Program-made: the position numbers and the translations under genes
Part shown: positions 8,401 to 49,955 of the stretch, in pieces
Layout: each line of letters begins with the position of its first letter
Numbering within the stretch: the first letter of the stretch is position 1
The notes under the pieces: generated by a model
Told to the model about the DNA's origin: nothing
Databases searched by the model: none
What the model saw: the letters and a program-made list of their open reading frames with translations, nothing else
Assembly (NCBI GenBank): GCA_009761415.1
Contig: QUOL01000001.1
Span: 3,348,001 to 3,412,000, forward strand
Length of the DNA stretch: 64,000 nucleotides
Direction: 5' to 3'
Origin: Sarcomyxa edulis
Taxonomy: Eukaryota > Basidiomycota > Agaricomycetes > Agaricales > Mycenaceae

Positions 8401-9743
8401 TTACCGCTGAGTCGTATCCTCGAAAAGGAAATTGATCAACTTTGTCACGACCTCTACATTGACGCTATTCCCGATCAGCCTGTATTTTGTTTTGGTGGAG
8501 ATGCCGTCCGGCCATGTGAAGGAGCGTTGGTTACTCGAGCTCAAGGGGAGGTCAGCTGTGTGCGGGTCTTCAAAGCTGAAGAGGCGGAGTAGCTCAGTTG
8601 GGGAGAAGTAACGCAGGCGGAGGGGGTGGAGGATGTGGACTGGGTCTGGTTCGGAGGAGTCCTGACACTGACACTGAGCTAGGAATTGATTGAATGTGGT
8701 GGTGGTCTAGGAATGTATTGATGTACAGAGGAGAGTGTGATTGATTGAGTGACTTACGTCTAGGCGTTCGTTCATTTGGAGGATGGATCCCGAACGTTCG
8801 ACTAATTGTGTGTATCCTGAAACACCAGGTTCAATTCAACGATATATAAAGGAGGCAGGAAGACAGGGAAGACCTCTGGTGAAACAGCATGTCCTGCGAG
8901 ACGAGGGGAGAACGATATCAAAGAGTCTTCCCCATTTTTTGAGAACGCGATCTGGTATGGCGTAAGGAAGTGATTGGCATTGGTCTTCGGGATCAAGGTA
9001 GCTTCGAATTTCTTTGACGTGATTCAGGTCCAATGATGTGTCTGATCTGGGGTCCATCCAGTCTTTACCGCGGCCGGGGATGTGCCTCCAGATGTGATCC
9101 GCATTGTTGGGAAGGGCAAAGGTGAGAGGTCGCAACTTTGCGAGGAGGTAATAACGTAGACGCGAATTTGGGGTACCAAACTGGAGGGGGGTCAATAGGA
9201 GCTCACAGACGGTGTAGCCCAGGGATGTTAGGGTGGATACGAGAATTTGACGGGTTGTCGAGGCCTGTTGGAACTTAGCAAGACGAGGGTAGCAGAGATT
9301 GAACTGGAAGCACCTCAAAACCTGCTACATTCTCGACCAAGAGGTAGTCTGGATGTGAGTGTGTGGCAGCAAGTTCAGGAAGTACGGATGTGATGAGATG
9401 TAGAAACGACTTTGCTCGAGGGTCGGCAGCACCTTTGGCCTTTTGGTTGAGAACAGTATAAGGCTGGCAAGCTGGCGACATTAGCCATAGGTTTGCCTCA
9501 TATCCAGCTAAAAAAGATGCTGTCAAAGTAGATATATCTAGCTGGACAAGAGGTAAGCCACTGCTGATGGTCTATGAGGGTGCCCACCTTTTGTACGATT
9601 TCTCCGTGGTTTGCTCTGTAGACACTCGCCGCTGTCTGGTCCCAGTCAAATGCACAGACAATGGATCCATCCACGGTGCTTCTGTCTAGTGCATAGTGTA
9701 GTCCGCCTATTCCACTGTAAAACTCCAGTCCCCGTATCACCAT
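8401..9743 (-). CDS. DNMT2: Dnmt2/TRDMT1-type cytosine-5 methyltransferase
   Basis: Minus-strand gene starting MVIRGLEFYSGIGGLHYALD (AdoMet-binding motif I) at 9743 and ending at 8401-8403. The first intron (50 bp, after HGEIVQK) gives in-frame continuation into LTASFLAGYEANLWLMSPACQPYT, the motif IV region with the catalytic cysteine. LLVENVAGFE (motif VI) and LQFGTPNSRLRYYLLAKL (motif VIII) follow. The later exons read RTCCFTRGYTQLVERSGSIL, then LRYFSPTELLRLFSF and YRLIGNSVNVEVVTKLINFL (motifs IX-X). This is diagnostic of Dnmt2, which in characterised members methylates C38 of tRNA-Asp rather than DNA. One oddity is SPACQP where the family normally has SPPCQP. The divergent PHD gene starts 244 bp away and the two may share a promoter region. 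Confidence 0.93.
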
Positions 9744-9987
9744 CGTCCCACAGTGTCTAGAATCAAAGCAGTGATTACGTAATACCATACATTGATCACG
9801 GTTGCTGAATTGTTGTCTCAATTTTCAGGCATTTAGCTAGTTCGACCGCCGGCGGGTTCAACCAGGTTCATCCAAGTTCATCTTTGTCGTATCTTTTGTC
9901 GTATCTTGAACGCAAGCTGCAACAAGCCCAAGATATATACAAGCTTCAGCGCACTTGACAACGATTATCGACTTTGTTTTACCTCGC

Positions 9988-33581: not shown

Positions 33582-34319
33582 GAGACATGCCAGTTTTGGA
33601 ACAGACTTTACCTTCAAGAAGGTTTCCGGAGACCCATGGTCTTAGTCGGCGGTCGCCCAGCAAAACACTCTGTTCGGCTGTCGCCGCAATAGCCGAACGT
33701 CTCGTAAATACACATTTTGTAATTGCATCCTGCACAGGGCAAACCCGCGAAATATGCTGGCGCAATAGTCCTGGAAATTCAATAGTCTCCAAAATTCAGC
33801 CGCGGATAGGTGTCGTGATGAATCACGTTCTCGCTGACAGCCGTAGCTTGCTCCTGGTAGACAGGGCAATTACAGGTTTAGTCAGGCTCCTAAAACCAGC
33901 CTCGGCTAAATTCCTGAACACGTTAGTGGAAGGTCTTTGAGGTCCTGAATTTTTGGCGCTTAACGGTAGTCTGGATCATCTGTCATACCCTTTACCGTAA
34001 GTCAAAAATCGTGACTTACACGTGATCGACCAAATACAACCACCTTTTTTGACGCGTCGCGTCAGGTCGCGTCTCCCTCCCTTCTCGCATGTCCTAGTCG
34101 ACCAATACCCTTGTATATGCACATAAAACTCTTAAATTATTGTCATGACCCCTTCGTCTCACTACCGTTGCGAGTATAAGTCTCCAAATGAGCTTAATGC
34201 TGCTCAGCCAACTCTCTTGTCTGCCGACTCTTCGCATTCTCTTCCAACTCCAGTCATTCCCCCTCGAGCCAACAATAATACCTTATCAGAGCCTCAAGAT
34301 ACTTCTTGAACCTCGAGTA
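33582..34319. other. Boundary into repeat-rich DNA; no supported gene
   Basis: This stretch has a 120-codon ORF on the plus strand (33578-33940) with no domain. A small palindrome GTAAGTCA...TGACTTAC lies at 33998-34020. A short open stretch from 34145 (MTPSSHYRCEYKSPNELNAA) ends at a stop just before the solo LTR and may be a gene fragment. Confidence 0.4.
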
Positions 34320-34487
34320 TGTGGGGATTTGTGCTAAAGAACTCTGCCTTATTTCGCTTTCAGCCACTTTACTTGTTTACTATTGTTTACTTCAGATGAC
34401 TTAGCCTTCCCTGGAGTCAGCTCACTGCTCTTTATCTTTGACAGTGAAGCTCGACTCCAGTGCTCTCTGAAGTGTCTCCCTTCAATA
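34320..34487 (+). repeat. Solo LTR of the copia family (short form)
   Basis: 168 bp matching the 226 bp LTR of the copia element at 44740, from TGTGGGGATTTGTGC to CTCCCTTCAATA. It lacks one copy of an internal repeat unit (about 58 bp). The five bases on each side (GAGTA and TAGTT) do not match, so no target duplication is seen. Confidence 0.85.
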
Positions 34488-34840
34488 TAGTTTGCAATCA
34501 CAACTGACTTTCAACAGGATCATTCAACAAGCACAGCCCATCCATACTCATCCAACAATGACAAGCATCTCAGGCCACTTCTGGTCATCCACAATACCAC
34601 GCCCACAGAGAGGAAGTGCCAAGTTCTCACGATCACATGTCACCGGAAGAAAGAAACCCCCCAAACTTAGAACCCAGACACTAAAGTGTCCAGGCACACG
34701 TACCCAACTTGTACCATGCTTTGACTGTGCTGTACCAGGACAATTGGCTTGAGGAAGTTATTAAGAAGAGGTTTTACATGTATAGAAAAATGTAGACCAT
34801 GTAGACTAATGTCCTATCCTGTACATCAATAAGTTCCAAG
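34488..34840. other. Repeat-flank region; no supported gene
   Basis: An 86-codon plus-strand ORF (34492-34752) contains KCPGTRTQLVPCFDCAVPG but no recognised domain. Confidence 0.4.
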
Positions 34841-36432: not shown

Positions 36433-37139
36433 GCTGTCCGCCCATCAGACAGATTATATATTTTCCGACATCTGGGAGTTATTCAGTATGTTGTACACAC
36501 GTCAATACTTATGGTCCCAATACAAGGGAAAGCACATTGTCTGCACAGCCAGATAACCGCCCGGTCAACCTTAGCACTCTCCGAGGATAAAAATTCCGTC
36601 GAAACTAAAGTATGTTTGTGTTGTGTTCCTACTCCTTGTCGATCCTCAGTTCTTATAGGGACCAAAATTCCTTGGAGGAATACCACCGCACCAAAAACAA
36701 ACTGTTCTGAAAGTAAGACTTCATTCAATTTGCAATGTGATTGTCTGATCACCTCTGGTTTAGCAAGGATTGTGTCTCTTCATTACCTCCTACAGAAGAC
36801 ACCCATCCTACCGTCAAAATGGCTACCATAGACAAACTTACCTTGGGCTCTCCAGCTGGTACTTTACTTTCAGAAAGTATTGTACAGTGGATTGAACAGC
36901 TTGTGGAGACAATTTGTGCTTGGATGTTCACCTACAGACTTGGAACCTGTTAGTTGCCTGTTTCTGTTTCAGAGTATCTGCTGAACTTACGTCTCAGCTA
37001 TTTTGCTGATCTCCATAATGGAACATTCCAAGGTTTATTGCAGTGCTCGAGCGGTAGAAGAGTGGCTGAGAGGAGCCACTCAGCTCAGCAAAAATGTGGA
37101 TGTCGGACAGTTGGGCCAAAATGTATGAGGCAGGTCTTA

Positions 37140-37224
37140 CAGCAGTTCCGCCAAATAATGACAATGATTGATTTTTTAATTTTGAGAATTTTCAATCCAA
37201 ATGAGGAAATTTGTTGCTTTTGCC
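37140..37224 (+). repeat. Left TIR of the Tc1/mariner-type element
   Basis: 85 bp, identical to the reverse complement of 40654-40738. Confidence 0.92.
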
Positions 37225-37295
37225 CGTCACGCCCAAGTCCCGGGCCTTTTGCTCTCGCCTCACACGCTCTCAGTCGTTCGTTTGTATCCTCAACT

Positions 37296-39182
37296 ATGCC
37301 CAATGCTACCCCGTCAGACGAGGAAGCTCTCCCTGAGATGTCAGTGGCTGAAGATCTCCGTGAATCACTCAAGATGGCTGTCGAGGCACGCCCCAGTTGT
37401 ATGTCAATTCACAGTTCTCAGTTTCGAATCTCTACAGACTCTACTAGCTCGACTGATTGCAATTCTTTCATAGGTAGCAAATTCCTTGTAATGAGTCCAG
37501 GTCTAATTGCCCTGAGGAACAAACAGAAGGCTGCGAAAGATCGCGCAAAGAACAGGAAGATTGCAACAAAAAAAATCAAAGTGAAAGTTGCTTCCACCAC
37601 TCCTGCCATGAGCTCCTCCCAACCCACCTCTCAACCGTCTGTCTCATCCACCTCTCTCGGAAAACAAAAGGCTGTTACTGTCGATACAGATGTGATTGAC
37701 ATTGACTCCGAAAACGACTTCGACGAACTTGCACTCGAGAATCCCAAACCGAAGAAGAAATCCAAAGGCACTACCACTCCTATTCCTGTCTCTATCCCTG
37801 TCTACATCAACATTGTTGGACCAGCATCTAAAGTTCTAGTCAAAGGTAAAGCAACACCACCTGTTGTACTTCGTCGTGGTCCATGCCTTCTCGATACATC
37901 AACTGCCAACTTTGACACTCTCCTCGTCCTCATCTCCGAGAATGCACCATGCCCCAAATCCCATATTGTTCAAGCAAAATTGACCTGGAAGTTCGACAAA
38001 CCAGCTAACAGTGTCCAAAACCCTATCGTACACGAAGTTGGTTTTTGTGTCATGGCCGACGCAGCCGCCGCGAAGAAGAAAGACAATTCTATCACCATCG
38101 AGATGCCACAGCCAAAACAGCCGGATGATTATGTGGTATGTTCTTTTGTCTATTCATCTACAAATCTGACGAGCTACACCTTCTATAGCCATGGGTGAAA
38201 ACCAAAACTGTAAATGTACACGAAGACCAAATCTTTCCGTACAATGAAATGATACCCGAGGCCGCACCAACTTCGATACGCCAACAACAGGTAAGCCTCC
38301 CTTTGTAAATCGTTCAGGATAGATGCTGATGCGCATATATGACCAGGTCTCTCTGAATCAAACTTCGGGAGCATCACAAGAGCTCGTTCGAGAGCGTTAC
38401 CCTGTTGGAAATAATCCCCTTTATCCTGGTATACGCGTATACACGGAAGACTCCACTAAGGTTGCTAATCCTCGTTCTTGGGAGCTCACCGATACACAAG
38501 TACAGATATGGGGTGTTCATTTAGTAAGCATATACTTACTTCGAGATCTCTATCCGTTATTTGGCTACTGATACTATCTAATAGGCTGCTGGGAGAACTA
38601 CTCTTGATGAACCACCAACCTCTATCCACTTCAGCGATGCACAGAAAATCAAATCTGGTCGCGCCGTTCGAGCTTCCGAATCCACTATTGTCCCACCCAT
38701 TGCGGCTATTGAGTCTATTGTTTCTCCCACCATTCCTACCGCAGCTCCTCTTATTCTACGACTGATTCTCTACTTCAGCAACTGCTCATCATGCAGTTTC
38801 AACAGCAACAACAACAATTTCAACTGCACCCACATCAATATCAGCCCTTCCCTCCTCTCGTTCCTGCACCTGCACCTGCACCAGCCACACCCGCTTTACC
38901 ACCACCTGTAGCACCAATTGCTTTGGCGCCAGCATCTCCGCAAAAAACCAATCTTCTTCGGCCGGTCTCTATTTCTGAATTTTGTACACGTTAAATGTCT
39001 CCGACACCGATAAAGGACGCCTCGAAACTCTCAAATTTGAGCCTGGAGATGAGTATCTTGAGAAGCTTGGAAGAGAAGATTGGGGAGATAAAGGAGTCGG
39101 CTTTACGGCTCTTGGATGGGCCCGCTTATTGGGGAAAAATCGTCAGTTTCTCAAAGATGTAAAGAAAGGAGAGTGGGTCTAA
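37296..39182 (+). CDS. Passenger gene of unknown function inside the Tc1/mariner TIRs
   Basis: The start is 37296 (MPNATPSDEEALPEMSVAED), just inside the left inverted repeat. The first exon reaches 38135 with LIALRNKQKAAKDRAKNRKI, a basic KKIKVKV stretch, acidic DVIDIDSENDFDELALENPK, a KPKKKSK nuclear-signal-like run and TANFDTLLVLISENAPCPKS. Introns at about 38136-38189, 38290-38345 and 38524-38584 keep the frame through PWVKTKTVNVHEDQIFPYNE, YPVGNNPLYPGIRVYTEDST and TTLDEPPTSIHFSDAQKIKS. A Gln/Pro-rich segment (FQQQQQQFQLHP) and a last block GDEYLEKLGREDWGDKGVGF then GWARLLGKNRQF end at 39182. Two joins near 38720 and 38985 need a one-base frame change or unseen introns. I recognise no domain. 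The protein looks nuclear and may assist transposition, or it may be a captured host gene. Confidence 0.6.
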
Positions 39183-39452
39183 TGTTTCCGAGTTTTTCCT
39201 TGCATCATGTCTCTCTGTTGCAGTCGTTCGCATTCACATTCGAGTTCTGTAGTTTTTGTTGTCTCAATCAGCTTTTCGTCGTCTTTCTGTTTTGTTGTCC
39301 AACCGCATAGTACTCTGTAGTATTTCACAATCATATCGCGCATTCACCAGCGACTGATGCCAGCAATCATTGTAAGTCACACTCGTATGCAGTCTACTAT
39401 TATAGTACAGGTCAATCTGACTTCTCGATGTTCATTCAGGACCGTCCCAGGC

Positions 39453-40611
39453 CTAATCTACATAGCCTGCATGCCGAAACCATCCTTCCGCCATTTCTCC
39501 AGTAATACACCCACATGCTTCTAGCAAAACTGCAATTGGATCCTCTGCATCTCTGATAATCTGTCCGTGGCGCCTGAGATACACTTTTACTGTGAGATCA
39601 TATATATAAGCATACAAAAGATAGTCACGGTGAAAGTCGGGACTTACAAGTGCTGAAAGACTCCTCAATTGGGTTCAGGTCCGGGCAATACAGAGGAAGG
39701 TACGATAGCAAGCAGCCTGATATACGAGAACCATCGTTGAGCTCGTCAAATCTGAGAGATGGAGGTACACGGACCTGAAGCTTGAACAAGATCCGCAAGT
39801 GCAGTATTATGATGTATACGGCAGTTGTCGAGAACGAGAACACTTCTGTTGTCTGGATATGGGCCATACGGGGTAGCTATTGGTTGTTTATATGAGTGAC
39901 TTGATGGAGAATACAAAGAGAAACTCACCACATCTTCGGCAACAAAATTGTAGAAGTCAAACGAGTCTAATGACCCAGGTATTACTCGAGTCGCAATATA
40001 TCCAGTCTTAGCGATGGCAGCTACTATCGAGAAGCGCTCTCCCCTCACAAACACATCAACAAAATCTGCCCGTTCTCCAACAGATGCCAAACCATATCGA
40101 CGAGTGGTGGTAGACGAGCGGTGGTGTGGTCGTTCTTCGCTGCCTCGTCAAGAAAAATGAATTGATCACCGGTGCCGTTGAAGAGGTCTCGATCTGCAAG
40201 GTTGGCCTTCCAATCTGCTCTCAATTCTTAGTCACGTTCTCGGGCTATTTTGTGGAGAAGTTTGCGGGTAAGACCTGCTTGCTGAAGATTTTCTTGGAGT
40301 GCCGAGACAGAAATGGCAATATCGTGATGAATAGCAAGCCACCAGCAGAGTTCGTCAAGGTATGTGTCTGGACCACGATTGTAGACTTCTTTGATGGCAG
40401 TAAGAACAGCCCTGGTGATGATTCGGGTACGTCCTCGGAGAGGTGAGGGTGGGCGGACAGGAGTGCCAAGCTCTTCGAAAATGTTCCGCCATCGATAGAG
40501 GCTGGACAGTGAGACGCAGAGAGTTTTACAGATGTCCGTTTCTTCCCAGCCAAGGTCCCAAAGACATAGGGCTGTTTCTTTCATGTCACGACTAATATGA
40601 CGGAAGCCCAT
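39453..40611 (-). pseudogene. DDE_3-type Tc1/mariner transposase, broken
   Basis: Minus-strand gene starting MGFRHISRDMKETALCLWDL at 40611, with an N-terminal helix-turn-helix (DICKTLCVSLSSLYRWRNIF). The catalytic core carries DQFIFLDEAAKND (first Asp), SVLVLDNCRIHHNTALADLV (second Asp) and PDLNPIEESFSTCK (Glu), with 34 residues between the second Asp and the Glu (DD34E). It ends MAEGWFRHAGYVD at 39453-39455. Introns split it after AEDV, after LVQAS and after FSTCK. An in-frame TAA follows IARERD (about 40233), and the frame changes between 40090 and 40130, next to an imperfect CGTCTACCACCACTCGTC repeat. The transposase is therefore probably inactive, while its inverted repeats remain perfect. 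Confidence 0.85.
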
Positions 40612-40653
40612 TGAGAATTGGATGGATATGAACGAACGAACGAGAACGTGTGA

Positions 40654-40738
40654 GGCAAAAGCAACAAATTTCCTCATTTGGATTGAAAATTCTCAAAATT
40701 AAAAAATCAATCATTGTCATTATTTGGCGGAACTGCTG
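40654..40738 (-). repeat. Right TIR of the Tc1/mariner-type element
   Basis: 85 bp perfect inverted copy of the left end, followed by TA. Confidence 0.92.
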
Positions 40739-40754
40739 TAAACGACCCAATTTT

Positions 40755-40980
40755 TGTTGGGATTTGTGCTATAGAACTCTGCCTTTATTTCGCTTTCAGC
40801 CACTTTACTTGTTTACTATTGTTTACTTCAGATGACTTAGCCTTCCCTGGAGTCAGCTCACTGTTCTTTATCTTTGACAGTGAAGCTCGACTCCAGGTAT
40901 ATTGTCTTACTCTACTTAATATACACATCTTTGACAGCGAAGCTCGACTCCAGTGCTCTCTGAAGTGTCTCCCTTCGATA
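40755..40980 (+). repeat. Solo LTR of the copia family (full-length form)
   Basis: 226 bp matching the copia LTR at 44740 from TGTTGGGATTTGTGC to CTCCCTTCGATA, with about ten substitutions. It carries both copies of the internal repeat. The flanks ATTTT and CTCCC differ, so no target duplication remains. It lies 14 bp beyond the right TA of the mariner element. Confidence 0.88.
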
Positions 40981-42374
40981 CTCCCCTTAACAGACAATCT
41001 ACTATACCATTTCCTTTCTTTTCCTCTCTTTCCTTCTTATTTACTGTACCTATCCTTCCCTTTTCCCCTCTCATCCTATTCGCGCTTTTTTGCGTGAATG
41101 ACATCACGCGTCACGCGCCAGCAAAGCGGTCAAGCCTGCCAGCAGCAAGGGTTTCCTCATCCTATTCTCTTTGGATTCCCCTCTGTTGTTGTGCAGGTTT
41201 TCTGCCTTCTTGAGGTTGCCCTTACAGATGCACGACTTACATTTTGGGACCCTCCGACTTGGATCTTTCAAGGATTTCTTCATCTCATGCTCATAAGGTG
41301 TAGTTCGGCCTGTGTTCATCCTATGTTCCCAAGTGGCTACATCGGGGTCCTCTGGCATGTTGAATGTGGTACGAGGGTATGGGAGTAAGACTGTGAGAAC
41401 GATCTGATAAGCCTGATCACAGCTTCGAAGTGTACCTATATTTGTGCAACCCCTTATAGACGATCATGAATATCTTTTCTTGTATACGATATACAAGAGA
41501 CCAGCATCTTTTTACTTGCATAGTAGCCCAGTCATTGACTTACAGATCCTAGTTGTTAGTACAAGAGACCAAATCGTTATATTCTTGCTAGTGAAAGACG
41601 CATAAATGAGGGCCTCTCCCCACAGCAGATGAGACGTTTACAGCAGGTTGCCATCCTGACACTATCCAAGCTTACTCGCCTTCAAGTGAATAGTCTGATA
41701 TCTCCTGTTATAAGATATGTTCAAGTGTCGCTCAAACAGCCTACAAAATAGATTAATCTCAGGGAAAGTCCAGCTTATGAGGTGTAAACGTACCAGGTGA
41801 TCAATATTGATATCAATGATACAGTCATCACCCGGTGACTGATACACCCCCACACAATGATACACGAGCTGGCTCCTGCCTCGACATCTGCACCTACTGC
41901 TCCAATTCTTTTTGTGTCCTGTTCATAAATGTATACATTCTTTTGAGACAGGAATTTTGAGTAGATTGAGTCCTCCAATATCTCTGCAAGGAGGGTGTAA
42001 TAATGAGGACATGTGATTTTGTCGGCTGCCCAAAATTTGGAACTGATATATAGACCTCGAACATGGGCCAAATTCCGAGTTTTCGAGACGGTCAACCATT
42101 GGCGCACCCCTAGCACTCATGTACAACAATTCTCATTCTTACTATCCCAGTATAATGCAGGAAAACCTCAAATATGCAAGTTTCGAGCAATGCACTGAGT
42201 GTCACATCTTCGATCGAGACACTGGCTTATCACAAGTTCTATTTCATTGATGTCAATGTATCCGTACCTGCTTCAATTTGTAGTCTATGTCAATGAGTTG
42301 TACTATCTACCTCTTTATTGACCCCCACCTCTCCTCCTTCCCCCTGGTCTCCTCATACACTCCAATCGTTCACC
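40981..42374. other. Repeat-rich flank of the pogo gene, with a possible decayed Tc1-like fragment
   Basis: No intact gene is visible. A minus-strand ORF at 42116-41775 contains CIIVWGCISHR, which recalls the VWGCIS block of Tc1-type transposases, but no catalytic residues can be placed around it. ORFs at 41098-41388 (+) and 41358-41104 (-) are mutually antisense and unrecognised. Confidence 0.4.
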
Positions 42375-44739: not shown

Positions 44740-44965
44740 TGTTGGGATTTGTGCTAAAGAACTCTGCCTTTATTTCGCTTTCAGCCCCTTTACTTGTTTA
44801 CTATTGTTTACTTCAGATGACTTAGCCTTCCCTGGAGTCAGCTCACTGCTCTCTATCTTTGACAGTGAAGCTCGACTCCAGGTACGTCGTCTTACTCTAC
44901 CTAATATACATATCTTTGACAGTGAAGCTCGACTCCAGTGCTCTCTGAAGTGTCTCCCTTCAATA
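44740..44965 (+). repeat. 5' LTR of the copia element
   Basis: 226 bp, TGTTGGGATT to CCTTCAATA. It holds two copies of TATCTTTGACAGTGAAGCTC... separated by about 30 bp. Confidence 0.95.
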
Positions 44966-45334
44966 GGTTATGGGCCCTGCGCTTTAACAGCCTTATCAGA
45001 TTGATCGCCTGTCACCAGCTCCTGCAAAAATCATTTTCACTCTATCTCCCTCACCCCTGCTCGGATATCTACCAAACTCATTTTCTGACACCTTATACAT
45101 CATCCCCACCTACCCCTATCACCCTGCTTCCCAGATCCAGTTTGATCTCTGACAACAACTGCCAGCTCATTTTTCACCAAATTCGACGCTACTCGCTCAG
45201 TTTTTATCGGATCGTCCTAAATCTGTTACCAGTCTCTTCCCCTCGTAATTCCGCTCCTAAACGTTTTATTCGTTCCCTCATCGCTCCAAAACTCCGCCCT
45301 CACCGTCAACCTTTCTCTGAAAAACTTCGAAATC

Positions 45335-48300
45335 ATGTCTGACTCCACACAATCTTTCCCCCTCCTCCTCAATGACTCCAACTACACCTCTTGGGCTGAC
45401 ACTATGCGCGCCCACTTCTCTACCAAGGGCCTCTGGCTTGCTACTGAGGGTTCTGACCCTCAACCTGGTCCTTTGGATCCATCGGCACCTACTGCCGCTG
45501 AGAGGAAGGAGTTGAGGGACTGGAAGTTGTCTTCATCCAAGGCTAGTGGGGAGATCTTTTTGGGAGTGGAAGAGAAGCAGAGGGTGCATATTAGAGGCTT
45601 GATTGGGGATCCAGTGAAGATGTGGGAGAAGCTGAGGGAGGTGCATGGGCAGAAGGTCTCTGAACCAAGGGTTAGCAGAAGGGGCACTAGGGGAGCCAAG
45701 GGCAGAAAGAAGACCGTGAAGGAGGCTCAGGAGATCACAGTGGAACCCCCCATCACCACTCATTTCGAGTCTGTTGGCTATGCCAGTGCTCTATCATTTT
45801 CTGATCGCTCTTCCTGGCTAAAATCTCATGCAGCCACTCACTGGATTGCCGATACAGGTGCTTCCTCACATATGACTCCTCATCGTCACTGGTTCCGATC
45901 TTACTCTCCCCATGTCATTGGTGTTCGTCTCGCCGATAGCTCGGTCATCTATTCTGCAGGTATTGGCTCTGTGGAGTTCCACCCTGTTGTGAATGGTGTC
46001 CAGATGCGTCCTATAGTCTTCCATGATGTCCTTCATGTCCCTGCCCTCGGCAGCAACCTCCTCTCCCTCTTCCATCTCACATCTCGAAAGGGCTATGCCA
46101 TTAAAATCATCGGACATACCGCTAGCTTCTTCATCAATGATGTTCTCCTCTTCACGGCTACAGTCACCGATCGGAATCTGGGTTATCTTGACGGTCATCC
46201 TCGTTCTTTTCCAGCAGAGGTAGCCAATTGAGCCAGCACTTTGCCGCTTGATCTGAGTCTCTGGCACCGGCGTTTGTCTCATCTCAACTACGTCGACGTT
46301 AAACGCATGCTCAGCAAGAAACTCGTCACCGGCATCTCTCTTGAGTCTCCCAACAAACCCGATCCCATCTGTGAGCCTTGCATTGCTGGCAAGCAACACC
46401 GTCACAACATTCCTCTAACTGCTACTCGTCGAACGAAGCCTTTAGCTTTGGTCCATACGGATCTGAAGGGGCCTATGCCTGTTCAGACTCCGGAGGGCTA
46501 TCGCTACTGGATGACGTTCATCGACGATGCTACGCGTTACTGGGTGGTTGCCTATCTCAAGCGCAAGAGTGACGCGTTTGCAGCCTTCAAGTCTTTCAAA
46601 GCTTATGCTGAGAAGGCTCTGGGGGTGCCGCTTCGCAAGATCCGTGATGACAAAGGGGGTGAGTACATGGGGAAGGAGTTCATTCAGTTCTGTGTCGACC
46701 ATGGCATTGCCAGACAGCACACTGAGCCCAACGAACCGCACCAGAATGGAGCTGCAGAGCGCCCAAACAGAGAGATTGCTGAAGCTGCTACCTCTCTTAT
46801 GGTTGAAGCCAAGCTCCCTGCGTCGTTCTGGGCTCGTGCCGTCTCTGCCTATGTCCACACTCGGAACAGGACACCCACTTCTGCCTTGAACGGCGAAGTC
46901 CCTTATTCTGCTTGGAAGAAGAAGAAACCTGACGTCTCTTACTTCCGAGTCTTTGGATGTCTCGCTTACGTTCTCATCCGCAAGGAGAAGCGTAAAGCGC
47001 TCCAACCCCATTCTAGGAAGTGCATATTTATTGGATATCCAGAAGGTGTAAAAGCATGGCTCTTCTGGGACCCGGCTGCTAAGAAATTCATCACCAGCAG
47101 CCACGCGGTCTTTGATGAACGCTACTACCCTGGTAATTCCCCTACTGCGATTAACTTGCTTGACGATCTGCCTTCCTCAGACCCTCTTCCTCCTCCTCCT
47201 CCGCCTGCCTCAGTCTCTTCAGATGATGACGATGTGCCGCATCATGGGGGAGATGACGATTTAGACGACTTTAGAGTTGATGCACCACCTCCTCAGCCAC
47301 CTCAGCAGCCTAATGCAGGCGATGCTCCAGGTAATGCTCCGGATTTTGCTCCTCCTGTCGCACCTCCTTTACCACCTCAACCTCCTCTACCACGTACTCC
47401 CTCTCCTCCTCCACAAGCTCGACGTCGTAATCCTCCGCGTCTGCAGCGTCCCAAAGGTTCTATGAACTTGCAGGATTTGCAGCGACACAACGTCCCAGCT
47501 CCCTTACAACGCCTCCCAACTCCAGCAGCAGCTCCAGCTCCTCCTAGACCAGAATCACCGGATCCTCTTCAGATGACTCCGCCTCTGCCAACTGCTCCTC
47601 TCCCTGATCATCCTCCTGCCGCTCCTCCTCCTCGCCAGTCTGTTTCTCCTGATCCACTCGATAACTGGGACACACCACGCAAGCCACCTCCAGTAATCGA
47701 TTCAGACTCGGATGAAGAAGATGTCGAAGCTCAGGATGTTGCCAGTGATCCAGATGTCCTGATGGCCGGTCTTGAATTTGTGGCCACAGCCCAATTCGAC
47801 GACTATCTGACCTGGACTGAGTTAGCAGCAGAGCTCTTTCCAACCAAGGAGTTTGCTTTGCGAGCTGCAGCTTTCAAGGCGTCCAGTTCTCATCAGAACG
47901 AGCCACGCAGTTTCAAGGAAGCGATGGAGCCCTGAACCGGAGCGCACTCGCTGGCTGAATGCTGCCACTGAAGAGATTGAGTCCCTCGTTCAGAACGGCA
48001 CTTTCAAGCTAGTTGAGTTGCCGCCTGGTGCAAGGGCCATTGGGAGCAAGTGGGTGTTCAAGGTAAAACGGAATGCAGATGGCTCTGTTGAGCGCTACAA
48101 GGGCCGCTTGGTTGCTCAAGGCTTCTCACAGCGCCCTGGCTTTGACTACACAGAGACGTTTGCTCCAACGCCGCAGTGGTTGTCTCTCAGAGCCATACTC
48201 GCTATCGTTGCTATCGAGGACTTGGAGTGTGAAAGCATCGACATCTCGTCTGCTTTCCTGTATGGTTGGTTGAAGGAGAAGGTATACATGCGTCAGCCTG

Positions 48301-49465
48301 AAGGGTTTCAGACCAAACCTCCTCACTGGGTGATGCTTCTCATCAAGTCTCTTTATGGCTTGAAACAGTCCGGTCGCAACTGGCACTTGGAGCTGAACAC
48401 CACCTTGGAGAAGATGGGGTTCAAGCGGATTGTGTGTGAGAACAGTGTCTGGGTCTACCTTCGTGACGGTGTGCGCATCATCATTCCTGTTTTCATTGAC
48501 GATATGACGATTGCAGCCAAGTCCAAGGCCGACATCCAGAAGGTCAAGGAAGAACTCAAGTCCCACTTCAAGCTTCGTGACTTGGGTCCCACTTCTTTCC
48601 TTCTGGGAGTCGAAATCACTCGTGACCGTTCCACTCGCACCCTCAATCTCTGCCAGCGCCAGTACATCATCGACCTCCTCCAACGTTTCAATCTCTCTGA
48701 AGCTAATCCTGTCTCCACTCCTCTCGACCCCAACATCAAGCTCAGTGCGTCCATGTCTCCAAAAACTCCGGAAGAGATTGCAGCGATGCATTCTATTCCT
48801 TACATCAACGCTGTAGGTGCTTTGTCTTATCTTGCCATTGCAACGCGCCCAGACATCTCTTACACGGTCGGTGTGCTTGCACGCTTCTGTAAGAATCCTG
48901 GGATGCAGCACTGGGCAGCCGTCAAACACCTCCTTCGCTATCTCAAAGGCACCATGGACTACAAGCTTTCCTACTCTCCTTCCGATTCCCCTGAACTGTT
49001 CACCACCTACACCGACGCAGACCACGGCGGCAATCCTGACAACGGACGATCTACATCTGGCTACGTCGTCAAGATGGGAACCGGTGCCATTGGCTGGCGC
49101 AGTCGACTTCAAACCCTGGTTGCTCTTTCCACCACAGAAGCTGAGTTGTTGCAGCTACTTATGCCGGCACTGAAATACTTTATCTTCGCAACCTCTTCTC
49201 TGCTATGGGTTACTCGTTCGACACACCATCCACTCTGCACATCGACAACAACTCCGCTCTGTCTGTTGCCAAAAACCCGGAACACCACGGTCGTATGAAA
49301 CACTTGGATCTTCGGTTCTACTGGTTGAGGGACGAGGTGGAGAAAGGACACATTGGTCTCAAGTATCTTCCGACGGCTCAGATGCCTGCAGATATCTTGA
49401 CCAAGGCGTTGGGAAGGATGAAGGTGTTGGATATGGTGAAAATGCTTGGTTTGCGTAAAGGTTGA
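45335..49465 (+). pseudogene. Copia Gag-Pol polyprotein gene, broken
   Basis: It starts MSDSTQSFPLLLNDSNYTSW at 45335, a copia Gag N-terminus. Gag stops matching after KMWEKLREVHGQK (about 45655) and resumes close to the protease, so the rest of Gag, including the expected zinc knuckle, is missing. Protease has HWIADTGASSHMTPHRHW (D-T-G-A). An in-frame TGA at 46229-46231 precedes the integrase, which shows LSLWHRRLSHLN, CIAGKQHRHN (zinc-binding), LVHTDLKGPM, IRDDKGGEYMGKEF and NEPHQNGAAERPNREI. A Pro-rich linker follows. A frame change near 47930 leads to reverse transcriptase (IGSKWVFKVKRNADGSVERY, IPVFIDDMTIAAKS). RNase H (LFTTYTDADHGGNPDNGR, LHIDNNSALSVAKNPEHHGR) is interrupted near 49147, where two bases appear missing, and ends LGLRKG at 49465. 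Confidence 0.93.
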
Positions 49466-49494
49466 TTTTGCAGAGTTGCATCATCATGGGGGAG

Positions 49495-49720
49495 TGTTGG
49501 GATTTGTGCTAAAGAACTCTGCCTTTATTTTGCTTTCAGCCCCTTTACTTGTTTACTATTGTTTACTTCAGATGACTTAGCCTTCCCTGGAGTCAGCTCA
49601 CTGCTCTCTATCTTTGACAGTGAAGCTCGACTCCAGGTACGTCGTCTTACTCTACCTAATATACATATCTTTGACAGTGAAGCTCGACTCCAGTGCTCTC
49701 TGAAGTGTCTCCCTTCAATA
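49495..49720 (+). repeat. 3' LTR of the copia element
   Basis: 226 bp, one substitution from the 5' LTR. Confidence 0.95.
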
Positions 49721-49955
49721 GCATATATATACAATGTAAAAAACCGATTTCAAGAATGTCCTCTGAATTTTTCTGGAGAGCTCAATTACAAAAGCACTGT
49801 ATCATTCGACGGGTGATGACTGTAACAATGCAAATGACTTGATGAAGACAAAAGAGTTGACGAGGCCAGAATTGGGTGAACAGCAACAACAACAGTTGCA
49901 GCAGACAATGTGCTCTCACTTGTAGGTAGTGCTACCAAGGAGAGCAGTGTGACGG
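49721..49955. other. Short spacer after the copia element; nothing recognised
   Basis: 235 bp from the target duplication to the start of the next LTR-like repeat. The bases GACGG lie just before that start. Confidence 0.4.

Follow-up and report, generated by a model that had tools for sequence, protein, structure and literature searches.

A decayed DD34E-type Tc1/mariner transposon of Sarcomyxa edulis and the probable two-gene lineage to which it belongs

The standard example of transposition carried out by a single, self-sufficient protein is that of the Tc1/mariner transposases, hence their use as vectors across species. Here we describe a member of this superfamily from the basidiomycete Sarcomyxa edulis whose terminal inverted repeats enclose a second gene (gene 2) in addition to the transposase gene (gene 1). 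It is located in a 64,000-nucleotide stretch of contig QUOL01000001.1 (assembly GCA_009761415.1; positions 3,348,001 to 3,412,000 of the forward strand), the whole of which we refer to as the window. According to PMC8533490, DD34E Tc1-like elements usually carry one gene and are typically 1.3-2.5 kb in length, whereas the two-gene elements reported here measure 2.8-3.6 kb and possess a second conserved gene.

Multi-gene Tc1/mariner elements have been described in ciliates: Tec and TBE (PMC7325037) and Sardine, Thon, and Anchois (PMC3464196), with Anchois also having a size of 3.6 kb. The ciliate elements resemble the fungal ones in that they combine a Tc1/mariner transposase with further genes inside the repeats and in that a hypothetical second gene is common to related elements. 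A tyrosine recombinase or a zinc-finger protein is among the additional products encoded by the ciliate elements, the other genes being hypothetical; no tyrosine recombinase was detected at E <=5 in the five gene 2 proteins that we scanned against Pfam (those of the elements C2, C1b, and C5, and the relatives P0001 and P0002). PIF/Harbinger and the related PHIS transposons pair a DDE transposase with an accessory protein, and their 2015 description calls the function of the additional genes still unknown (PMC4482050). They share the two-gene cut-and-paste design with the element studied here, yet their transposase belongs to another superfamily, and the Myb/SANT domain of PIF/Harbinger-type accessory proteins was not found by Pfam in any of the five scanned gene 2 proteins. 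Among fungi, Ant1 of Aspergillus niger is reportedly a Tc1/mariner-type element with extra coding DNA, a captured fragment of a known host gene; gene 2, by contrast, is a conserved gene present in several lineages. Our literature search found no fungal Tc1/mariner element with gene 2, although its coverage of the subscription literature was thin and an earlier mention is possible. The gene pair is not described in the accessible portions of PMC7325037, PMC10799480, PMC3464196, PMC4482050, PMC8533490, PMC4112212, and PMC4054914.

We regard the unit in the window as a decayed copy of a two-gene DD34E-type Tc1/mariner lineage whose second product would be a partner protein that oligomerises, a reading that we consider probable and in which the partner function is one that we infer. 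To judge from the relatives of gene 2, the host group of this lineage would be the basidiomycete fungi.

The element in the window

The element has a length of 3,599 bp (37140-40738) and is closed by 85-bp terminal inverted repeats (left arm, 37140-37224, plus strand; right arm, 40654-40738, minus strand), which in turn are bordered by TA target-site duplications at 37138-37139 and 40739-40740. The two arms are identical over exactly 85 bp and diverge beyond. These ends had been recognized in an original prediction made from the letters of the window, as had a DDE transposase and a convergent multi-exon plus-strand gene inside the left repeat, and both parts of this prediction proved correct.

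Gene 1 is a Tc1/mariner-type transposase gene with introns on the minus strand (39453-40611) that is interrupted by a premature stop at about 40230 and a frame shift at about 40110. Its product is 62% or 66% identical, in two comparisons, to the open-frame transposase of the related element C2, which matches the Pfam families DDE_3 (PF13358) at 7.2e-28 and HTH_23 at 6.1e-7; the window itself yields two DDE_3 matches, one of 29.0 bits (cut-off 28.6) and one of 26.4 bits, which is below the cut-off. On the basis of this identity and of the two matches, we assign the window gene to the DDE_3-type transposases. The combination of a DDE_3 catalytic domain and an N-terminal helix-turn-helix by which Tc1/mariner transposases are recognized is hence present, by way of the C2 transposase and the higher-scoring window match. 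Judged by sequence, transposase and ends have the anatomy of an ordinary Tc1/mariner element, of a predicted DD34E and cut-and-paste type.

Gene 2 (37296-39182, plus strand), which encodes the presumed accessory protein, begins about 70 bp inward of the left repeat and is convergent with the transposase gene. It consists of five predicted exons (37296-37398, 37474-38135, 38189-38290, 38347-38523, and 38585-39182), and its four introns correspond in order and phase to those of the C2 relative. The reading frame is broken near 38753 and again near 38990. Since the copy on C11 (92-95% identical) possesses a single open frame through both of these positions, the breaks reflect decay, not the edges of exons. 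The doubtful places near 38720 and 38985 are accordingly rejected as introns. The window copy is therefore damaged in both of its genes.

Relatives in the same genome

We searched the 35.6-Mb assembly (40 contigs) for relatives of the element, and the counts from these own-genome searches are lower bounds. The 85-bp repeat occurs at least three times, as the two arms in the window and as a single arm on C11. A query with the read-through gene 2 protein found relatives on C11, C2, and C23, and the transposase led to at least 12 places, the window included. At 7 of these 12 places gene 2 lies in convergent orientation: the window, C11, C2, C23, C40:944162, C1:3010502 (C1b), and C5:1014301. The remaining places, four near-identical ones (C37:831502, C1:639150, C1:693577, and C1:3861284) and a fragment at C13:267177, lack gene 2; there, tblastn with five gene 2 versions returned nothing under E 0.027.

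All four copies found in the nearest family (window, C11, C2, and C23) carry gene 2, with C11 retaining only its 3' part. The C11 gene starts abruptly beside a fragment of a long terminal repeat (LTR; L004 5600-5760) of the same family as the LTR at 40755-40986 of the window, which indicates that its 5' half was lost at the LTR junction; the C11 transposase carries a stop of its own. Both genes are open in C2, an element of about 3.64 kb whose 82-bp arms are 96% identical. C23, examined without its gene-2-side end, matches C2 at 96-98%, but its gene 2 is interrupted by two insertions, one of about 190 bp and the other of about 7.6 kb (C23:1035000-1046400; L043, L044).

Three further lineages establish the gene pair and its layout with an open transposase and a convergent open gene 2 in each: C40 (about 3.0 kb; arms of 73 bp at 93%; gene 2 of 450 residues), C1b (2.8 kb; 78 bp at 78%; 384 residues), and C5 (3.1 kb; 46 bp at 83%; 467 residues), the exon joins of these gene 2 versions being predicted from splice signals and frame. 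Their transposases are only 33-37% identical to those of the window, C2, and C23. A single repeat pair encloses both genes in five elements, in the same order and with a stop-to-stop gap of about 50-270 bp. Terminal inverted repeats, a mark of the Tc1/mariner (IS630-Tc1-mariner) superfamily, are present not only in the window but also in C2, C40, C1b, C5, and four 1.5-kb elements, and a TA flanks both sides of the window element, C2, C1b, C5, L045, and L046, and one side only of C40.

Own-genome searches with four gene 2 versions disclosed no complete copy outside these elements, and their sole off-element match was a short C-terminal one on C36. The latter is a 111-residue open frame at C36:715896 (L055 2370-2702) that resembles the gene 2 protein of C5 at its SAM-like C-terminus (37% identity, E 2.7e-8); no transposase was seen in the 5 kb fetched around it, and it is either a relic or a host gene. 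Classical Tc1 transposases above the DDE_3 cut-off are found at six places (C4 twice, C12, C20, C38:865359, and C15), two of which were fetched. The below-cut-off DDE_3 places C38:56587 and C28:70846 were not among the loci examined; the weak match on the former contig (C38:56587-56820) lies within an open frame of 1,543 residues. Locus L050 contains, outside its two-gene element, two more inverted-repeat pairs (8643-9753; 33 bp at 97% and 29 bp at 100%) that are about 1 kb apart.

A joined-flank search for an empty insertion site with a single TA found none; the right flank of the element is a repeated LTR, and 40 of the 63 candidates were scored. This LTR (40755-40986) begins 14 bp beyond the right-hand TA of the transposon and is 93% like those of an LTR retrotransposon at 44740-49726, which we assign by eye from its open frames to the copia type and whose 232-bp LTRs (44740-44971 and 49495-49726) are 99% alike. 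A fourth LTR of the family is present in the window at 34319-34550 (63% identity ungapped, 97% over the first 85 bp), and at least 39 further matches to the first part of the LTR exist in the genome.

Homology and domains of the gene 2 proteins

The five gene 2 versions (window, C2, C40, C1b, and C5) have in common the W, P, P, and F columns of a core motif, W-(A/G)-x(4,5)-G-x(6,9)-P-P-x(4)-F, which in the window lies at 38500-38640 (plus strand) and is split between its W and G by a conserved phase-0 intron. A profile of the C40 family aligns with the C1b version at 5.1e-20, with C5 at 4e-5, with C2 at 2.2e-6, and with the window version alone at 5.9e-4. Each of these four scores is better than that of any of 36 control sequences (32 shuffled and 4 reversed; best 0.013), which establishes the homology via the C40 family. 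The phase-0 intron right after the W motif is found at the matching place in all five versions, as is a second phase-0 intron located 57-61 codons ahead of the motif; the first intron of the gene is in phase 1 in four versions and in phase 2 in C5. These shared introns provide independent support for the homology of the gene 2 versions.

Outside this genome, we found 15 relatives of gene 2, all of them unnamed proteins of mushroom-forming fungi, and 12 of these are included in an alignment termed A2 (P0009, P0012, and P0015 were left out). The structural model of one relative, P0007, predicts a PB1-like domain with the PB1 fold and a SAM-like domain with the five-helix SAM fold. In hhalign comparisons, the part of the window protein encoded by 37926-38135 (plus strand) aligns weakly with the PB1-like region of C40-type relatives, over the second half of that region, and the C-terminal part (38960-39182, plus strand) aligns with the C1b version where the latter is SAM-like (C2 and window pair versus C1b, E 8.6e-4). 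The gene 2 protein comprises a charged N-terminus, a PB1-like domain (in the best-studied version), a region with invariant Cys and His residues, the core motif, a linker, and a SAM-like domain; it is probably nuclear. The earlier view that the protein contains no recognisable domain is thus superseded for P0007, though not directly for the window protein.

The A2 profile gave nothing at E <=10 against the PDB sequences, none of its 27 and 24 pattern matches in viral and prokaryotic contig collections, respectively, was confirmed, and Foldseek reported no match at E <=0.001 against the PDB and viral models. None of the five scanned gene 2 proteins matches a Pfam enzyme family above its cut-off. 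A match of the C1b protein to CCDC47 (3.5e-4) is below the cut-off and spans acidic and lysine runs; we took it, like the remaining weak Pfam matches of 0.08 or worse, as a product of chance.

Possible roles and history of gene 2

Since gene 2 is conserved across an old fungal lineage, it probably serves the transposon as one of its functional components and is unlikely to be a chance passenger. In a transposase tree, the 1.5-kb one-gene family is the sister of the group formed by the window, C2, and C23, and C40, C1b, and C5 fall outside (supports of 92/99 for the larger group with the one-gene family and 94/96 for window, C2, and C23). The tree comprises ten rows and omits the C13 fragment, C11, and L047 and L048, which are nearly the same as L045 and L046. 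Its midpoint root separates the group as a whole, one-gene family included, from two classical Tc1 elements with one gene each that also come from this genome. The transposase genes of the one-gene family share two introns with those of C2, C40, C1b, and C5; in agreement with the tree, a third is common to C2 and the one-gene family and absent in C40, C1b, and C5. The simplest history is probably a single gain of gene 2, which the elements would have carried before the lineages of this genome split, and a single loss in the 1.5-kb family. Since this family is nested inside the two-gene tree, gene 2 is probably ancestral, was probably lost once, and is probably no strict requirement for catalysis.

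PB1 and SAM domains mostly engage in like-with-like or head-to-tail contacts, and the most likely role of the gene 2 protein would therefore be that of a multimerising scaffold for the transposase and the ends of the element, which may concentrate or escort the transposase. With gene 1 acting as the cut-and-paste transposase, gene 2 would raise transposition without performing the chemistry itself; it is the presence of interaction domains and the absence of an enzyme match that make it a candidate helper. Alternatively, it may shield the element against silencing. As a tentative model, which we put somewhat below even chances, the PB1-SAM protein polymerises and drives either the assembly of the transpososome or anti-silencing, one-gene derivatives are served in trans, and the whole represents an old two-component system of mushroom-forming fungi.

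Several observations weigh against the reading of the element as a member of a two-gene lineage with a partner protein. Four near-identical, apparently young 1.5-kb DD34E elements (L045, L046, L047, and L048) have an open transposase that is 48% identical to that of C2 and no gene 2; either the chemistry is probably possible without gene 2 in these elements, or gene 2 acts in trans. They speak against the strict need for a partner that had been considered in the original prediction, whose two-gene lineage is otherwise supported. The distribution of gene 2 on the tree requires two changes, and 57 of 500 label shuffles were equally good, so that the tree of ten rows is suggestive only. Direct hhalign comparisons between the outer lineages are weak (C2 and window versus C1b, 8.6e-4, and versus C5, 0.013; C1b versus C5, 0.49), the second of them on a par with the best control in the comparisons with the C40 profile; the homology link consequently passes through the C40 family. 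Searches of the protein database with the C2 gene 2 protein, either whole (7,995 candidates scored) or with its residues 160-542 (7,998 candidates scored), returned no matches, perhaps because low-complexity words crowded true relatives out of the candidate list. Finally, a single-sequence model of the window stretch 37776-38135 has a predicted local distance difference test (pLDDT) score of 49, a low confidence, and the fold is known from a relative.

An anti-silencing protein or expression regulator that counteracts host cytosine methylation and is selected only under strong silencing would account for the existence of one-gene relatives and for the lack of a Pfam enzyme family in the five scanned proteins. 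In the transposase half of C23, compared with C2, 21 C-to-T or G-to-A changes stand against 6 in the reverse direction, and 15 of the 21 are at CpG, which suggests that the elements are methylated and fits a shielding role. This bias is, however, weaker between the window and C11 (22 of 48 and 17 of 30 at CpG), and no result obtained here separates regulation from assembly; we regard an exclusively regulatory role as rather unlikely. We consider it clearly less probable still that an ancestor of the elements captured a host gene once and that its descendants carried it passively. The C36 open frame, with no transposase seen in its vicinity, and the frequent occurrence of PB1 and SAM domains in host signalling proteins could be taken in this sense, but open frames, motif, and introns have been kept across lineages whose transposases are 33-37% identical, and a full-length gene 2 off the elements did not emerge from the searches with four versions.

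The unusual length of the window element is the only point in favour of the idea that this copy alone picked up an unrelated gene in a single recent event, and the idea is refuted by the presence of gene 2 in the four family members found and in three further lineages. Of the two origins that the original prediction had envisaged, a captured host gene or a new two-gene lineage, the latter is supported, and a recent capture is not. That gene 2 stems from another transposon that was the target of an inserting one-gene Tc1 element, or the reverse, is very improbable. Convergent genes with promoters of their own could derive from two such nested or adjacent units; the common enclosing repeats and the constant gene order in five elements led us to reject this idea, and no further long inverted pair was listed around either gene alone, short pairs not having been searched.

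We therefore favour a conserved helper gene within a two-gene Tc1/mariner lineage. The retention of the second gene through deep divergence in a fungal branch suggests a helper function, and gene 2 may be the source of part of the repeated, still unnamed proteins known from Agaricomycetes. In one and the same genome, related branches that have the presumed helper occur next to others that lack it, which amounts to a natural experiment. If the PB1-SAM two-component system is real, Tc1/mariner transposition would not always be a one-protein reaction.

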